Part shown: one piece after another, positions 23,478 to 29,256 of the stretch
Layout: the number at the start of each line of letters is the position of its first letter
Position numbering within the stretch: position 1 is the first letter of the stretch
DNA from: Candidatus Poribacteria bacterium
GTDB lineage: Bacteria; Poribacteria; WGA-4E; WGA-3G
NCBI GenBank assembly: GCA_009839975.1
Contig: VXOP01000329.1
Location: 1 to 37,492, forward strand
DNA length: 37,492 nucleotides
Direction of reading: 5' to 3'
The notes under the pieces: generated by a model
What the model saw: the letters and a program-made list of their open reading frames with translations, nothing else
Told to the model about the DNA's origin: nothing
Database searches by the model: none
Position numbers and translations under genes: made by a program

Positions 23478-23506
23478 TTGACAATGGCTATAATTTAATA
23501 TATAAT
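23478..23506 (+). promoter_or_regulatory. Consensus promoter of the MarR-fusion gene
   Basis: TTGACA (23478-23483), exactly 17 bases, TATAAT (23501-23506): a full-consensus sigma70-type promoter. The ATG is at 23559. Confidence 0.8.
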
Positions 23507-23510
23507 TTAT

Positions 23511-23522
23511 GTCGTATACGAC
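23511..23522. promoter_or_regulatory. Perfect palindrome GTCGTATACGAC, candidate MarR operator
   Basis: A 12-base perfect palindrome that begins four bases after TATAAT and so covers the predicted transcription start of the MarR-type regulator gene. MarR-family dimers bind such palindromes to repress their own genes. I did not see a second copy of the full palindrome in this window. Confidence 0.6.
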
Positions 23523-23558
23523 GGATTATATATCTGATATAGGACGTATTTTAAAAAG

Positions 23559-24449
23559 ATGTCAAAAAACCGTGGATATAATCAAGGATTCAATCAAGAA
23601 ATAGATGTTGTCATGCGTGTGATGCGTCATGCGCAAGCAGCAGTCAAATCCAGATTTATTCAGGATGTTGTCCCTAACCGGCTAACAATCGTTCAGTTCA
23701 ACGCTTTACAACATCTCCATTGGTATGGTAGAGACGCTGGGATGTATGTCAGCGAATTAGGTGAACATCTGGGACTGGCACACAACACAGTTTCAGGATT
23801 GGTTGATCGTCTTGAACGTCATGGGTGGGTAATACGTCGTAAATGTGAAGAAGATCGTAGACGTGCTCGCATTCAACTGACACCGCAATCAAAGGAACTT
23901 TTCCGTGAACGGGTGGAACATGTTGTGGACTTTTGGGAACAGACCGTCGGTCAACTTTCCGCTGAAGAACAGCAGAACCTGATTGACAGTCTCAAAAAGC
24001 TGCAACAGGTGATGGCAAAACCCGTGTGGCCAAGTTATTCACAGTTACACCCACGTGACGCGGATCATTTACGGGAAAAGTTTGAAACCGATATTGATGA
24101 ACTTGCACAGACAAAACTGAAACTTGTCGGAATTCGGTTAATACTTGCACAAATTGCAGAAAAACGGAATGAGCACGAACTCGCGGCATACCTTAACCAA
24201 GCTGCATCCGAAGAGATACGACATACGAACCAGTTGTTTTCTCTACTCGGTCATGGAGAACATTTTGACAAACTGCTGTCATCACTCGTTGATGAAGATA
24301 AAGTCGTCTATGAGGAGTTATTAGCATTAATTGATGATGCTCCTTGCACCGAAGAGGATGAAGAATTTGTCCTTCTCCAACAGATGCTTCAAGATAGCCA
24401 TAGATATAAAAAATGGTTTCGCAGGGTTCATAAAGAAAAAAATCGGTGA
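23559..24449 (+). CDS. MarR-family regulator fused to a ferritin-like domain
   Basis: A 296-residue two-part protein. Residues about 1-155 are a MarR winged helix: MYVSELGEHLGLAHNTVSGLVDRLERHGW (recognition helix) and the wing RRKCEEDRRRARIQLT. From about 175 to the end is a helical segment with LAAYLNQAASEEIRHTNQLF (ExxH) and LQDSHRYKKWF, resembling the rubrerythrin/ferritin fold. Only part of the usual diiron ligand set is present: the first-helix Glu position appears to be Lys. The likely role is a one-component repressor whose signal (iron, peroxide, oxygen) could be sensed by the helical domain; this is inference. A perfect palindrome sits on its promoter, suggesting autoregulation. The ECF sigma gene follows after 62 bases. 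Confidence 0.75.
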   Translation: MSKNRGYNQGFNQEIDVVMRVMRHAQAAVKSRFIQDVVPNRLTIVQFNALQHLHWYGRDAGMYVSELGEHLGLAHNTVSGLVDRLERHGWVIRRKCEEDRRRARIQLTPQSKELFRERVEHVVDFWEQTVGQLSAEEQQNLIDSLKKLQQVMAKPVWPSYSQLHPRDADHLREKFETDIDELAQTKLKLVGIRLILAQIAEKRNEHELAAYLNQAASEEIRHTNQLFSLLGHGEHFDKLLSSLVDEDKVVYEELLALIDDAPCTEEDEEFVLLQQMLQDSHRYKKWFRRVHKEKNR

Positions 24450-24511
24450 CTTCTATTCTATCAAAGACCAACTGAGTCTCAGTCTTGGTCAATCACACTT
24501 GAGAGGAGAAC

Positions 24512-25126
24512 ATGCAGTCCCAAAGCCAAGAGAATATTCCACTATCCGATAACGATGATGCCGAACTGATAGAGCAATTCCAGAACGGCAATACTGCTGT
24601 ATTTGATACACTTTTTACCCGATATCAGAAACGCACCTATCGATTGGTTCAACGTTTCGTTCCAAACCATGAAGATGCACTTGATATTACACAAGATGCT
24701 TTCATCAGAGCGTATCAAGGATTAAGTAATTTCAAGAGCCAATGCCAGTTTTATAGTTGGCTTTACCGCATTACAGTCAACCTCTGTATAGATTTTTTGC
24801 GTAAAAAATCTCGGTCGGAAGTCATGGTATATGAATCTGAAGATTCTGATGAATTGCCGATGGCGAACTTCCCTGACTTACGATCAGTTTCCCCCGCAAA
24901 AGCTGCTGAAAACAAGGAACTCAGATCACAGATACGCAAGGCTATCCGTCAACTGCCACCTAAGCAACGACAAATCTTTATCCTCCGTCACTGGGACGGA
25001 TTATCCCTGAAAGACATTGCAACAGTAGTCGGCAGATCGGATGGCACAGTCAAAGCGCACCTATTCCACGCACATCGCAACCTCCGCAAACATCTGCAAC
25101 CTTACCTGAAGGAAGCGGATCTTTAA
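24512..25126 (+). CDS. ECF/SigE-like RNA polymerase sigma factor
   Basis: A 204-residue sigma factor with two domains. Sigma2: AVFDTLFTRYQKRTYRLVQRF, EDALDITQDAFIRAYQGLSNF (core binding and -10 recognition) and FYSWLYRITVNLCIDFLR. Sigma4: IRQLPPKQRQIFILRHWDGLSLKDIATVVGRSDGTVKAHLFHA (HTH for -35). No sigma3 region and no ECF anti-sigma gene next door, although the following gap is full of repeats. Short ribosome binding site GAGAGGAG. Regulated perhaps with the MarR-ferritin fusion just upstream. Target genes cannot be read. Confidence 0.92.
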   Translation: MQSQSQENIPLSDNDDAELIEQFQNGNTAVFDTLFTRYQKRTYRLVQRFVPNHEDALDITQDAFIRAYQGLSNFKSQCQFYSWLYRITVNLCIDFLRKKSRSEVMVYESEDSDELPMANFPDLRSVSPAKAAENKELRSQIRKAIRQLPPKQRQIFILRHWDGLSLKDIATVVGRSDGTVKAHLFHAHRNLRKHLQPYLKEADL

Positions 25127-26709: not shown

Positions 26710-27966
26710 ATGAATTTTAAGGCAATCTATTCATTATACATCCCACTTATCATGTGTGCCATATTGTTGGTGAGCACTACAGGTTGTGAACGCGATACTA
26801 ATATACAAGACGCTAAACCTGCCTTGACAGGTACTATTGAACCTGGTGTCGTTGACGCAAACACAAAATTCGGTTTTAACTTATTCAATGAAATCCTAAA
26901 TACTGAAGAAGATATAAACATATTTATCTCTCCATTTAGTGTTTCGCTTGCATTAGCGATGACTTTAAACGGTGCATCAGAGACGACTGAACAAGCTATG
27001 ATAGACACGCTCCAACTACAAGGCAACGATTCTGAAACCATCAATACAAGCTACGCACTCTTACTTCAAGCACTAAAAACTTCTGATCCTAAAGTGACAT
27101 TGGAAATCGCAAACTTACTCTGGGCGGATCAATATTTCACATTCAATCAAGATTTTCTACAGCGAAATACCGACTATTTTGGCGCAGAAGTTTCGACGCT
27201 TGATTTTGCAGATCCAAATTCTGTTGACACAATTAATCAATGGGTCGATACAAATACAAACGGAAAGATAGAAAAAATCCTTGAGCAAATTGCCGAGGAT
27301 GAAATACTGTTTCTTATCAATGCCATCTATTTCAAAGGAGCATGGCAAACAGAATTTGACCCTGCAAATACGCGTGATAATACATTCCATCTGGCTGACG
27401 GTAGTCAAAAGCAGGTCCCCATGATGACCCGTGAGGATACGTATCCGTTTTATTACGCATCGGATTTTACTGCAATTAGCCTGCCTTACGGAGAAGGAAG
27501 GGTAAGTATGTATATCTTCTTACCATCCCAAAACTCCAGTCTTGACCAATTTCTTGAGAATCTGAATGCAGAAAATTGGCAGAACTGGATATCACAGTTC
27601 CGTGAACAGAAGGTTTGGCTACAAATTCCAAAATATAAATTTGAATATAAAACTAATCTGAACAGTGTTCTCAAGGCACTCGGTATGGGTATAGCGTTTG
27701 ATGAAAATGCAGCTAACTTCAGTCGGATGCTGCCGGATGGCGCAGCAACTACAGGGAATCTGTTTATCTCAAGAGTTGATCACAAGACGTATGTAGAAGT
27801 CAATGAAGAAGGCACTGAAGCTGCCGCCGTGACGAATGTTGGCATAGGTGTCACATCGGCTCCACCATCATTTATCGTCGACCGTCCGTTCTTCTTTGCA
27901 ATTCATGACAATGAAACAAAAACAGTGTTATTTATGGGAACTGTTGTTGATCCCACTGAAGAATAG
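26710..27966 (+). CDS. Lipoprotein serpin, predicted P1 Thr
   Basis: A 418-residue serpin anchored as a lipoprotein: lipobox end LVSTTGC with Cys26. The serpin fold is plain: NIFISPFSVSLALAMTLNGA, LLINAIYFKG-type LFLINAIYFKGAWQTEF, VPMMTRE and the end FVDRPFFFAIHDNETKTVLFMG-like region. The hinge VEVNEEGTEAAAV is of the inhibitory type, with Gly/Thr and small residues at P15-P9. Counting against alpha-1-antitrypsin puts P1-P1' at Thr-Ser (VTNVGIGVT-SAPPSF). It should trap a serine or cysteine protease at the cell surface. AGGAG lies 11 bases before the ATG. The second serpin follows within 40 bases. Confidence 0.92.
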   Translation: MNFKAIYSLYIPLIMCAILLVSTTGCERDTNIQDAKPALTGTIEPGVVDANTKFGFNLFNEILNTEEDINIFISPFSVSLALAMTLNGASETTEQAMIDTLQLQGNDSETINTSYALLLQALKTSDPKVTLEIANLLWADQYFTFNQDFLQRNTDYFGAEVSTLDFADPNSVDTINQWVDTNTNGKIEKILEQIAEDEILFLINAIYFKGAWQTEFDPANTRDNTFHLADGSQKQVPMMTREDTYPFYYASDFTAISLPYGEGRVSMYIFLPSQNSSLDQFLENLNAENWQNWISQFREQKVWLQIPKYKFEYKTNLNSVLKALGMGIAFDENAANFSRMLPDGAATTGNLFISRVDHKTYVEVNEEGTEAAAVTNVGIGVTSAPPSFIVDRPFFFAIHDNETKTVLFMGTVVDPTEE

Positions 27967-28002
27967 TTTCCTGTTAGAACTGCCGCTGAGATGGAGAAAC
28001 CA

Positions 28003-29256
28003 ATGAATAGTAAGAGAACATCTGGAAAAACCAACCTATACATTATGTTTTTTAGTATCTTTCTGCTCATCGGGTGTTTTGATAATGCGGTGGACACACT
28101 CACAGAGAATATAGACAAACCTGCTGTCGTTCCGATTGATTTAAATGTATCTATGGCTAATACCAGATTTGGATTTGACCTATTTCAAGAGATATGGAAA
28201 GCCGAACCGAATCAGAATGTCTTTATATCCCCGTTTAGCGTTTCTACTGCTTTAACGATGACGTTGAACGGCGCATCTGGGGAAACAGAACAGGCAATAA
28301 CCGATACCTTACAACTACAGAATGTCGGTAACGATGCAATTAATAACAGTTTTAGTCAACTGCTACAGCAACTACAAACATCCGATCCGAAAGTAACACT
28401 TACAATTGCCAACTCACTTTGGGCAAATCAGGATTTTCAATTCAAACAGGACTTCCTACAACGAAATGAAAATTATTTTGAGGCTGAAGTCTCAACACTT
28501 GATTTTTTAGACCCAAATACACTCAATACGATCAATCAGTGGGTCAATACTAACACAAACGGTAAAATCCCAAAGATTCTTGAAGAAATTGAATCAAATG
28601 CTGTGTTGTTTCTGATAAATGCCATCTATTTCAAAGGCGTGTGGCAAACTGAATTTGATCCCGCAAAAACGCAAGATGGAGACTTCTATCTCACCGATGG
28701 CAGTACAAAACAGGTTCCGATGATGAATAGACAAGGCATGTTTCCTATCTATTACGGAGACAATGTAGCAGCAATTAACCTCCCCTATGGCGAGGGACGG
28801 ATGCGTATGTATATCTTCCTACCTTCACAAAAGTCTAACCTTAACGACTTTGTAGGTGTTCTAAACGCTGCGGACTGGGAGAATTGGATGACACAGTTCC
28901 GAGAACAGGATATTTCAATACGAATTCCAAAATTCAAAATAGAATATGGTACGAAAGAACTCAATGATGCGTTAACATCACTCGGAATGGGTGTCGCATT
29001 TGATGAAGATCGCGCAGACTTCAGCCGAATGGCAACATTAGAAAAACCGAGTGCTAATCTATATATAGACAAGGTAGCACATAAAACATTTATTGAAGTC
29101 AACGAAGAGGGGTCTGAAGCAGCAGCAGCGACAAGTGTAACGATCGGTGTTAAGTCACTACCGAGGATGTTTATTGTTAACAAACCGTTCTTCTTCGCAA
29201 TACGTGATAATGAAACACAAACAGTGCTATTTATGGGTGTCGTCGTAGACCCGTAG
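28003..29256 (+). CDS. Lipoprotein serpin, predicted P1 Lys
   Basis: The second tandem serpin, 417 residues, closely related to its upstream neighbour along the whole length (for example FISPFSVSTALTMTLNGASG and NAIYFKGVWQTEFDPAKTQD), so it arose by gene duplication. Lipobox end FLLIGC with Cys25. Hinge VEVNEEGSEAAAATS is inhibitory type; P1-P1' is predicted Lys-Ser (VTIGVK-SLPRMF), which would favour trypsin-like proteases, unlike the first serpin. The ATG at 28003 is preferred to 27991 because GGAG lies six bases upstream. Followed after 31 bases by the vWA gene, possibly in one transcript. Confidence 0.92.
   Translation: MNSKRTSGKTNLYIMFFSIFLLIGCFDNAVDTLTENIDKPAVVPIDLNVSMANTRFGFDLFQEIWKAEPNQNVFISPFSVSTALTMTLNGASGETEQAITDTLQLQNVGNDAINNSFSQLLQQLQTSDPKVTLTIANSLWANQDFQFKQDFLQRNENYFEAEVSTLDFLDPNTLNTINQWVNTNTNGKIPKILEEIESNAVLFLINAIYFKGVWQTEFDPAKTQDGDFYLTDGSTKQVPMMNRQGMFPIYYGDNVAAINLPYGEGRMRMYIFLPSQKSNLNDFVGVLNAADWENWMTQFREQDISIRIPKFKIEYGTKELNDALTSLGMGVAFDEDRADFSRMATLEKPSANLYIDKVAHKTFIEVNEEGSEAAAATSVTIGVKSLPRMFIVNKPFFFAIRDNETQTVLFMGVVVDP

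Follow-up and report, generated by a model that had tools for sequence, protein, structure and literature searches.

One-component repressors of the MarR/SlyA/OhrR type combine a winged helix with a short palindromic operator at their own promoter. Both features are found at the locus described here, which lies in a stretch of 37,492 nucleotides from a Candidatus Poribacteria bacterium (contig VXOP01000329.1, positions 1 to 37,492, hereafter the window), and its 12-bp operator is about the size of the SlyA site. The locus differs from these systems in that the regulator carries a fused C-terminal ferritin-like bundle and its output is probably a sigma factor, not a pump or an enzyme. Families and genera are labelled f1–f10 and g1–g22, respectively, with the window belonging to f1 and g1.

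Rubrerythrin, sulerythrin and other ferritin-like diiron proteins resemble the C-terminal domain in their four-helix bundle, a likeness which sequence comparison traces to descent. In sulerythrin, Glu53 and His56 are diiron ligands (PMC12851003). The f5 orthologues of the regulator share with these proteins the ligand order Glu, ExxH, Glu, ExxH and with sulerythrin the 33-residue first spacing from Glu20 to Glu53, whereas the window lineage keeps only three of the six ligands and its domain is attached to a regulator instead of serving as an enzyme or an iron store. In the R2 protein of class Ie ribonucleotide reductase (VPK/QSK), three metal-binding glutamates are replaced, one of them by Lys, and there is a functional Tyr at the site (PMC11846895). 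The window protein is similar to it in having a Lys in place of a ligand glutamate within a ferritin-like bundle, which is metal-free in class Ie, this being an analogy of residue pattern and not of compared positions.

ECF sigma factors under transcriptional regulation include HrpL, SigE under CseBC, the proposed TetR-linked ECF203 and the PadR-associated ECF265 (PMC8999054). The sigma factor of the locus, in which Sigma70 regions 2 and 4 were found, is like them in having no linked anti-sigma factor and a transcription regulator nearby, but here the two genes appear to belong to a single operon under autorepression. In a review devoted to ECF factors that lack an anti-sigma factor, TetR- and PadR-linked groups are listed and no MarR-linked ones (PMC8999054), and a search of the open-access literature found no Poribacteria paper also mentioning ECF sigma factors. 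If the reading proposed below is true, a MarR repressor joins the few known controls of ECF sigma factors lacking an anti-sigma factor. The features of the locus are listed in Table 1.

Table 1 Features of the regulator locus in window coordinates
Feature	Position	Strand	Description
Promoter	23478..23506	+	TTGACA (23478–23483), 17-bp spacer, TATAAT (23501–23506); read directly from the sequence, both boxes shared by nearly all homologous loci aligned
Operator box 1	23511..23522	.	Perfect palindrome GTCGTATACGAC covering the predicted start point, conserved upstream of homologues
Operator box 2	23538..23548	+	Degenerate half-site TATAGGACGTA, lying 23 bp past the TATACGAC half of box 1
MarR-ferritin-like regulator	23559..24449	+	296 aa, ATG to TGA; 64 of the 85 phylum genomes have a homologue
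MarR winged-helix domain	23682..23861	+	aa 42–101, PF01047, E 7.8e-12
C-terminal four-helix, ferritin-like domain	24060..24443	+	aa 168–295; AF2 helices, Pfam matches of orthologues, profile match
Intercistronic RNA hairpin	24450..24506	+	Covariation in 29 f1 sequences
ECF sigma factor, probable second operon gene	24512..25126	+	204 aa; Sigma70_r2 and r4_2

The regulator and its C-terminal domain

The sequence-only reading had described one polypeptide joining a MarR winged helix to a helical, ferritin-like domain with ExxH (SEEIRH) and DSHRYK motifs, and this description was borne out. The MarR domain of the window protein scores 45.3 bits against a Pfam cut-off of 24.6 and was also matched in all 43 homologues. 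It is followed by four long helices predicted with AF2 at residues 168–202, 206–229, 236–260 and 268–295, and the two motifs occupy residues 217–222 and 279–284. The model is of fair confidence inside the individual domains, its pLDDT being about 95 around residues 191–220, with a pTM of 0.41 marking the domain arrangement as uncertain.

No Pfam ferritin match was detected in the C-terminal domain of the window protein alone, and the domain is labelled as ferritin-like because its orthologues pass the Pfam cut-offs and are linked to it by profile comparison. Two f5 orthologues from two other genera (L044 and L045), which align with the window protein over the full length with 32–34% identity, pass both PF02915 Rubrerythrin (37.0 vs 22.8 bits) and PF00210 Ferritin (29.0 vs 24.5 bits), and L046 comes near the Ferritin cut-off (21.7 vs 24.5 bits). 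The C-terminal profile of f1 and f3, built without f5 sequences, matches the f5 profile with an E-value of 6.5e-14. The seven best PDB matches of the former are all ferritins, none of them significant (E 0.024 and up). The Foldseek matches listed are MarR-type or other HTH-like proteins, the bundle itself not being independently matched to ferritins by structure, and the structure of an f5 orthologue was modelled poorly, with a mean pLDDT of 69. Judging by the Pfam and profile matches, the C-terminal domain descends from a ferritin-like ancestor. Assignment to the DinB superfamily (PF12867) was also considered and rejected as a chance match, with an E-value of 0.04 and an alignment spanning part of the MarR region.

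Outside the phylum, the MarR-ferritin-like fusion was found neither in approximately 300 genomes of other phyla nor in 249 further, mostly small genomes (fusions elsewhere are possible), and the plasmids searched contained nothing beyond the MarR part. No paper on such a fusion was found in the open-access literature, which is not proof of absence. No clear ribosome-binding site precedes the regulator start codon (window 23540–23560, TTTAAAAAGATG), whereas the sigma-factor gene possesses a strong one.

Diiron ligand positions and selection on the bundle

The f5 orthologues carry all six diiron ligands, namely Glu186, Glu219/His222, Glu247 and Glu280/His283 in window numbering, with a spacing of 33 residues in both halves, and the ExxH motif of L044 aligns with Glu53/His56 of sulerythrin. 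The Glu, ExxH, Glu, ExxH pattern found in these orthologues is absent from the window protein, which has Lys186, Glu219, His222, Asp247, Ser280 and Tyr283 at these positions and thus retains Glu219, His222 and Asp247, the assignment of the third ligand to position 247 rather than 246 being less certain than the others. The earlier remark that the ligand set is incomplete therefore holds, three of the six positions being replaced in the window lineage. The replaced positions are themselves conserved: in the 40 sequences of f1 and f3 Lys186 is invariant, as are Glu219 and Asp247 (40/40 each), Tyr283 and His222 are each present in 39, and position 280 is occupied by Ser or Asn. The corresponding residues in f8 are Lys, Leu, His, Arg, Val and His.

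The dN/dS values of the C-terminal domain range from 0.03 to 0.09 and are rough, with synonymous sites close to saturation. At least 90% conservation was found at 53 of the 136 domain positions, and the six ligand positions stand only modestly above the background because the general conservation of the domain is high. Judging by the dN/dS values, the domain is under purifying selection and is not decaying.

The sequence-only reading had suggested sensing of iron, peroxide or oxygen, which for a diiron site is not supported, because three of the six ligands are replaced by other, conserved residues. For the same reason a rubrerythrin-like diiron sensor finds no support in the window lineage, where the residue pattern argues for a metal-poor or metal-free sensor. 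Since the bundle of this lineage appears to be a dismantled diiron site, a rubrerythrin-like diiron reaction is a less likely signal than a small molecule, one bound metal or non-diiron redox chemistry.

A more specific suggestion, possible but not probable, is that the bundle derives from a diiron site but is now free of metal, the place of a ligand Glu being taken by an invariant Lys and that of a ligand His by Tyr, and that it has come to serve as a redox or ligand sensor controlling the sigma factor, the intact state being represented by f5 with its ABC exporter and the dismantled state by f1 and f3 with the sigma factor. If this is true, one regulator family would contain a natural series with the diiron site present, half gone and replaced, which makes it testable how enzyme folds become sensors.

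Alternatively, the bundle may still be a metal sensor in which Glu219, His222 and Asp247, perhaps helped by Glu246, hold a single metal ion (iron, manganese or zinc), with occupancy or a reaction with peroxide switching DNA binding. The first and the third of these residues are invariant and the second nearly so in the 40 f1 and f3 sequences, and the ExxH motif matches the diiron ligands of sulerythrin; however, the symmetry-related ExxH is gone (Ser/Asn280, Tyr283), the charge of the invariant Lys standing in place of Glu at position 186 would oppose a metal, and f8 keeps the operator and the sigma factor despite having neither Glu219 nor an acid at position 247. This makes a metal sensor rather unlikely in our estimation.

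It is also conceivable that the protein is an ordinary MarR-type drug or metabolite repressor with the ligand bound in the MarR dimer cleft and the bundle only stabilising the dimer. Between families the MarR domain is indeed better conserved than the bundle (67% vs 50% to L046), and the f5 neighbour is an ABC exporter, a classical type of MarR partner. Most MarR proteins do not need an extra domain, though, and within f1 the bundle is under strong purifying selection, while five of the six positions that once held ligands carry near-invariant residues, so an ordinary MarR repressor seems an improbable description of the protein.

Promoter and operator

The palindrome which had been noticed over the consensus promoter of the regulator gene is sited just after the -10 box and is kept upstream of homologues down to 37% identity. 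Directly downstream of the -10 box in f1 and f3 lies its 10-bp core, either as TCGTATACGA or in a form that mostly differs from it at one or two positions, and in L043, which belongs to another family (f8) and encodes a protein 37% identical to the window one, the core is present as TTTCGTATACGAAA. The substitutions observed in the core in some homologues are small and often symmetric, and the position at the promoter is kept in nearly every homologue, far beyond chance. The operator is absent in the two f5 orthologues. Box 2 is conserved in genera g1–g4, its f1 form being TATAGGA within conserved flanking bases at a distance of 23 bp, and most f3 loci have TTATACGA(T/C) or TTATGCGAC at this place, 22 bp from box 1. 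In genus g4 (L007, L008, L010–L012, L031–L042), there are approximately 75–105 extra bases between the operator and the start codon, forming a long 5′ leader.

A genome-wide search for the palindrome, proposed earlier as a way of defining a regulon, revealed an operator essentially private to the regulator promoter. The 12-mer GTCGTATACGAC occurs only once in the 4.78-Mb genome, and no second match to the 20-bp operator was found there with up to three mismatches allowed. The pattern TATAAT-N(0-14)-TCGYATRCGA, searched in 59 family genomes, has matches in 44 of them, always including the promoter of the regulator itself. Two extra sites are sporadic, one located inside a coding sequence of the window genome (G000) and the other in G084, and the remaining extra matches arise from reading this palindrome on the opposite strand. 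No recurring second site was detected with this promoter-linked pattern in the 59 genomes, the search of weaker operator variants not being exhaustive. A wider regulon was considered and rejected, as nearly all of the 53 further exact matches to the core in the genus fall within coding sequences, and they have no shared or conserved promoter.

Because the palindrome is conserved at the promoter of its own regulator and is essentially confined to it, the operator is, on this comparative evidence, real, essentially private and autoregulatory. Its location over the start point suggests repression rather than activation.

The sigma-factor gene and the proposed circuit

The sequence-only reading recognised the regulator and the operator but overlooked the ECF sigma-factor partner, box 2 and the intercistronic hairpin. 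In the window, the sigma-factor gene begins 62 bases past the regulator stop codon. With a threshold of E below 1e-60, the sigma factor is found in 60 of the 85 phylum genomes, in all of which the regulator is present and adjacent, the sigma-factor gene lying approximately 60–300 bases downstream of it on the same strand, and genomes without the regulator have no match at this threshold. Four genomes possess the regulator without such a match, namely G060, G012 and two from f5. In G060 the locus is interrupted by a contig end, and in G012 (the L043 locus of f8) a 49% identical sigma factor overlaps the regulator stop codon by 4 bases. The regulator in f5 is followed by genes coding for an ABC exporter and a DUF1854 protein (L044, 394–3163; L045, 485–3285), which gives the regulator family another kind of neighbour; both proteins have their best matches to cyanophycin metabolism-associated models and fall below the cut-offs of those models. 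Upstream of the regulator there is an ABC-F gene, conserved only in f1. No candidate anti-sigma factor was detected among the next downstream genes in the inspected loci, an unlinked one being possible. Judging by this linkage, the sigma factor is probably the true output of the regulator. One f3 genome has an additional, more diverged sigma-factor copy with 57% identity, located away from the regulator (G017:C268:7656-8210).

The outer stem of the hairpin is formed by CUUCU just after the regulator stop codon (24450–24454) and AGAGG (24502–24506), which is the ribosome-binding site of the sigma-factor gene. In f1, 90.6% of the stem cells are paired compared with 21–56% for slid partners, and there are 21 double-change cells, with eight double changes at each of two pairs; the outer part of the stem is supported mostly by conservation. 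Some g4 loci fold more stably than their shuffles (z -3.0 and -4.5), whereas the window sequence is no more stable (z 0.12). The hairpin was not found in f3, and the window yielded no known RNA family in Rfam. The covarying stem points to translational coupling of the regulator and the sigma factor.

The covariation in f1 would also fit a palindrome and a hairpin acting mainly in RNA, as an attenuator or a thermometer, with the protein having other targets. Nevertheless, box 1 keeps its place at the start point by the -10 box even in distant families that lack the f1 hairpin, there is no Rfam match, and no other recurring promoter-linked operator was found, which makes an RNA-level role of this kind very improbable.

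We consider it on balance probable that the locus encodes an autorepressed one-component MarR-type repressor with a ferritin-like sensor bundle, whose output is the adjacent ECF sigma factor; of this circuit, the operon and the operator are well supported by their conservation. As the strongly conserved anatomy suggests, a dimer on box 1, covering the start point next to the -10 box, would block RNA polymerase, with box 2, about two helical turns downstream, aiding its binding. A signal acting on the C-terminal bundle would alter the distance between the two winged helices, releasing the operon. The hairpin suggests that ribosomes finishing the regulator would then open the stem masking the ribosome-binding site of the sigma-factor gene, leading to both proteins being made together. 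The sigma factor, having no linked anti-sigma factor, would redirect RNA polymerase until new repressor closes the operon. Such a circuit may act as a small switch responding to stress.

Further downstream in the window (26710–29256), two adjacent serpin genes, the first of which matches PF00079 with an E-value of 9.1e-123, follow a gene coding for a molybdopterin oxidoreductase domain protein and represent tandem protease inhibitors in a bacterium.
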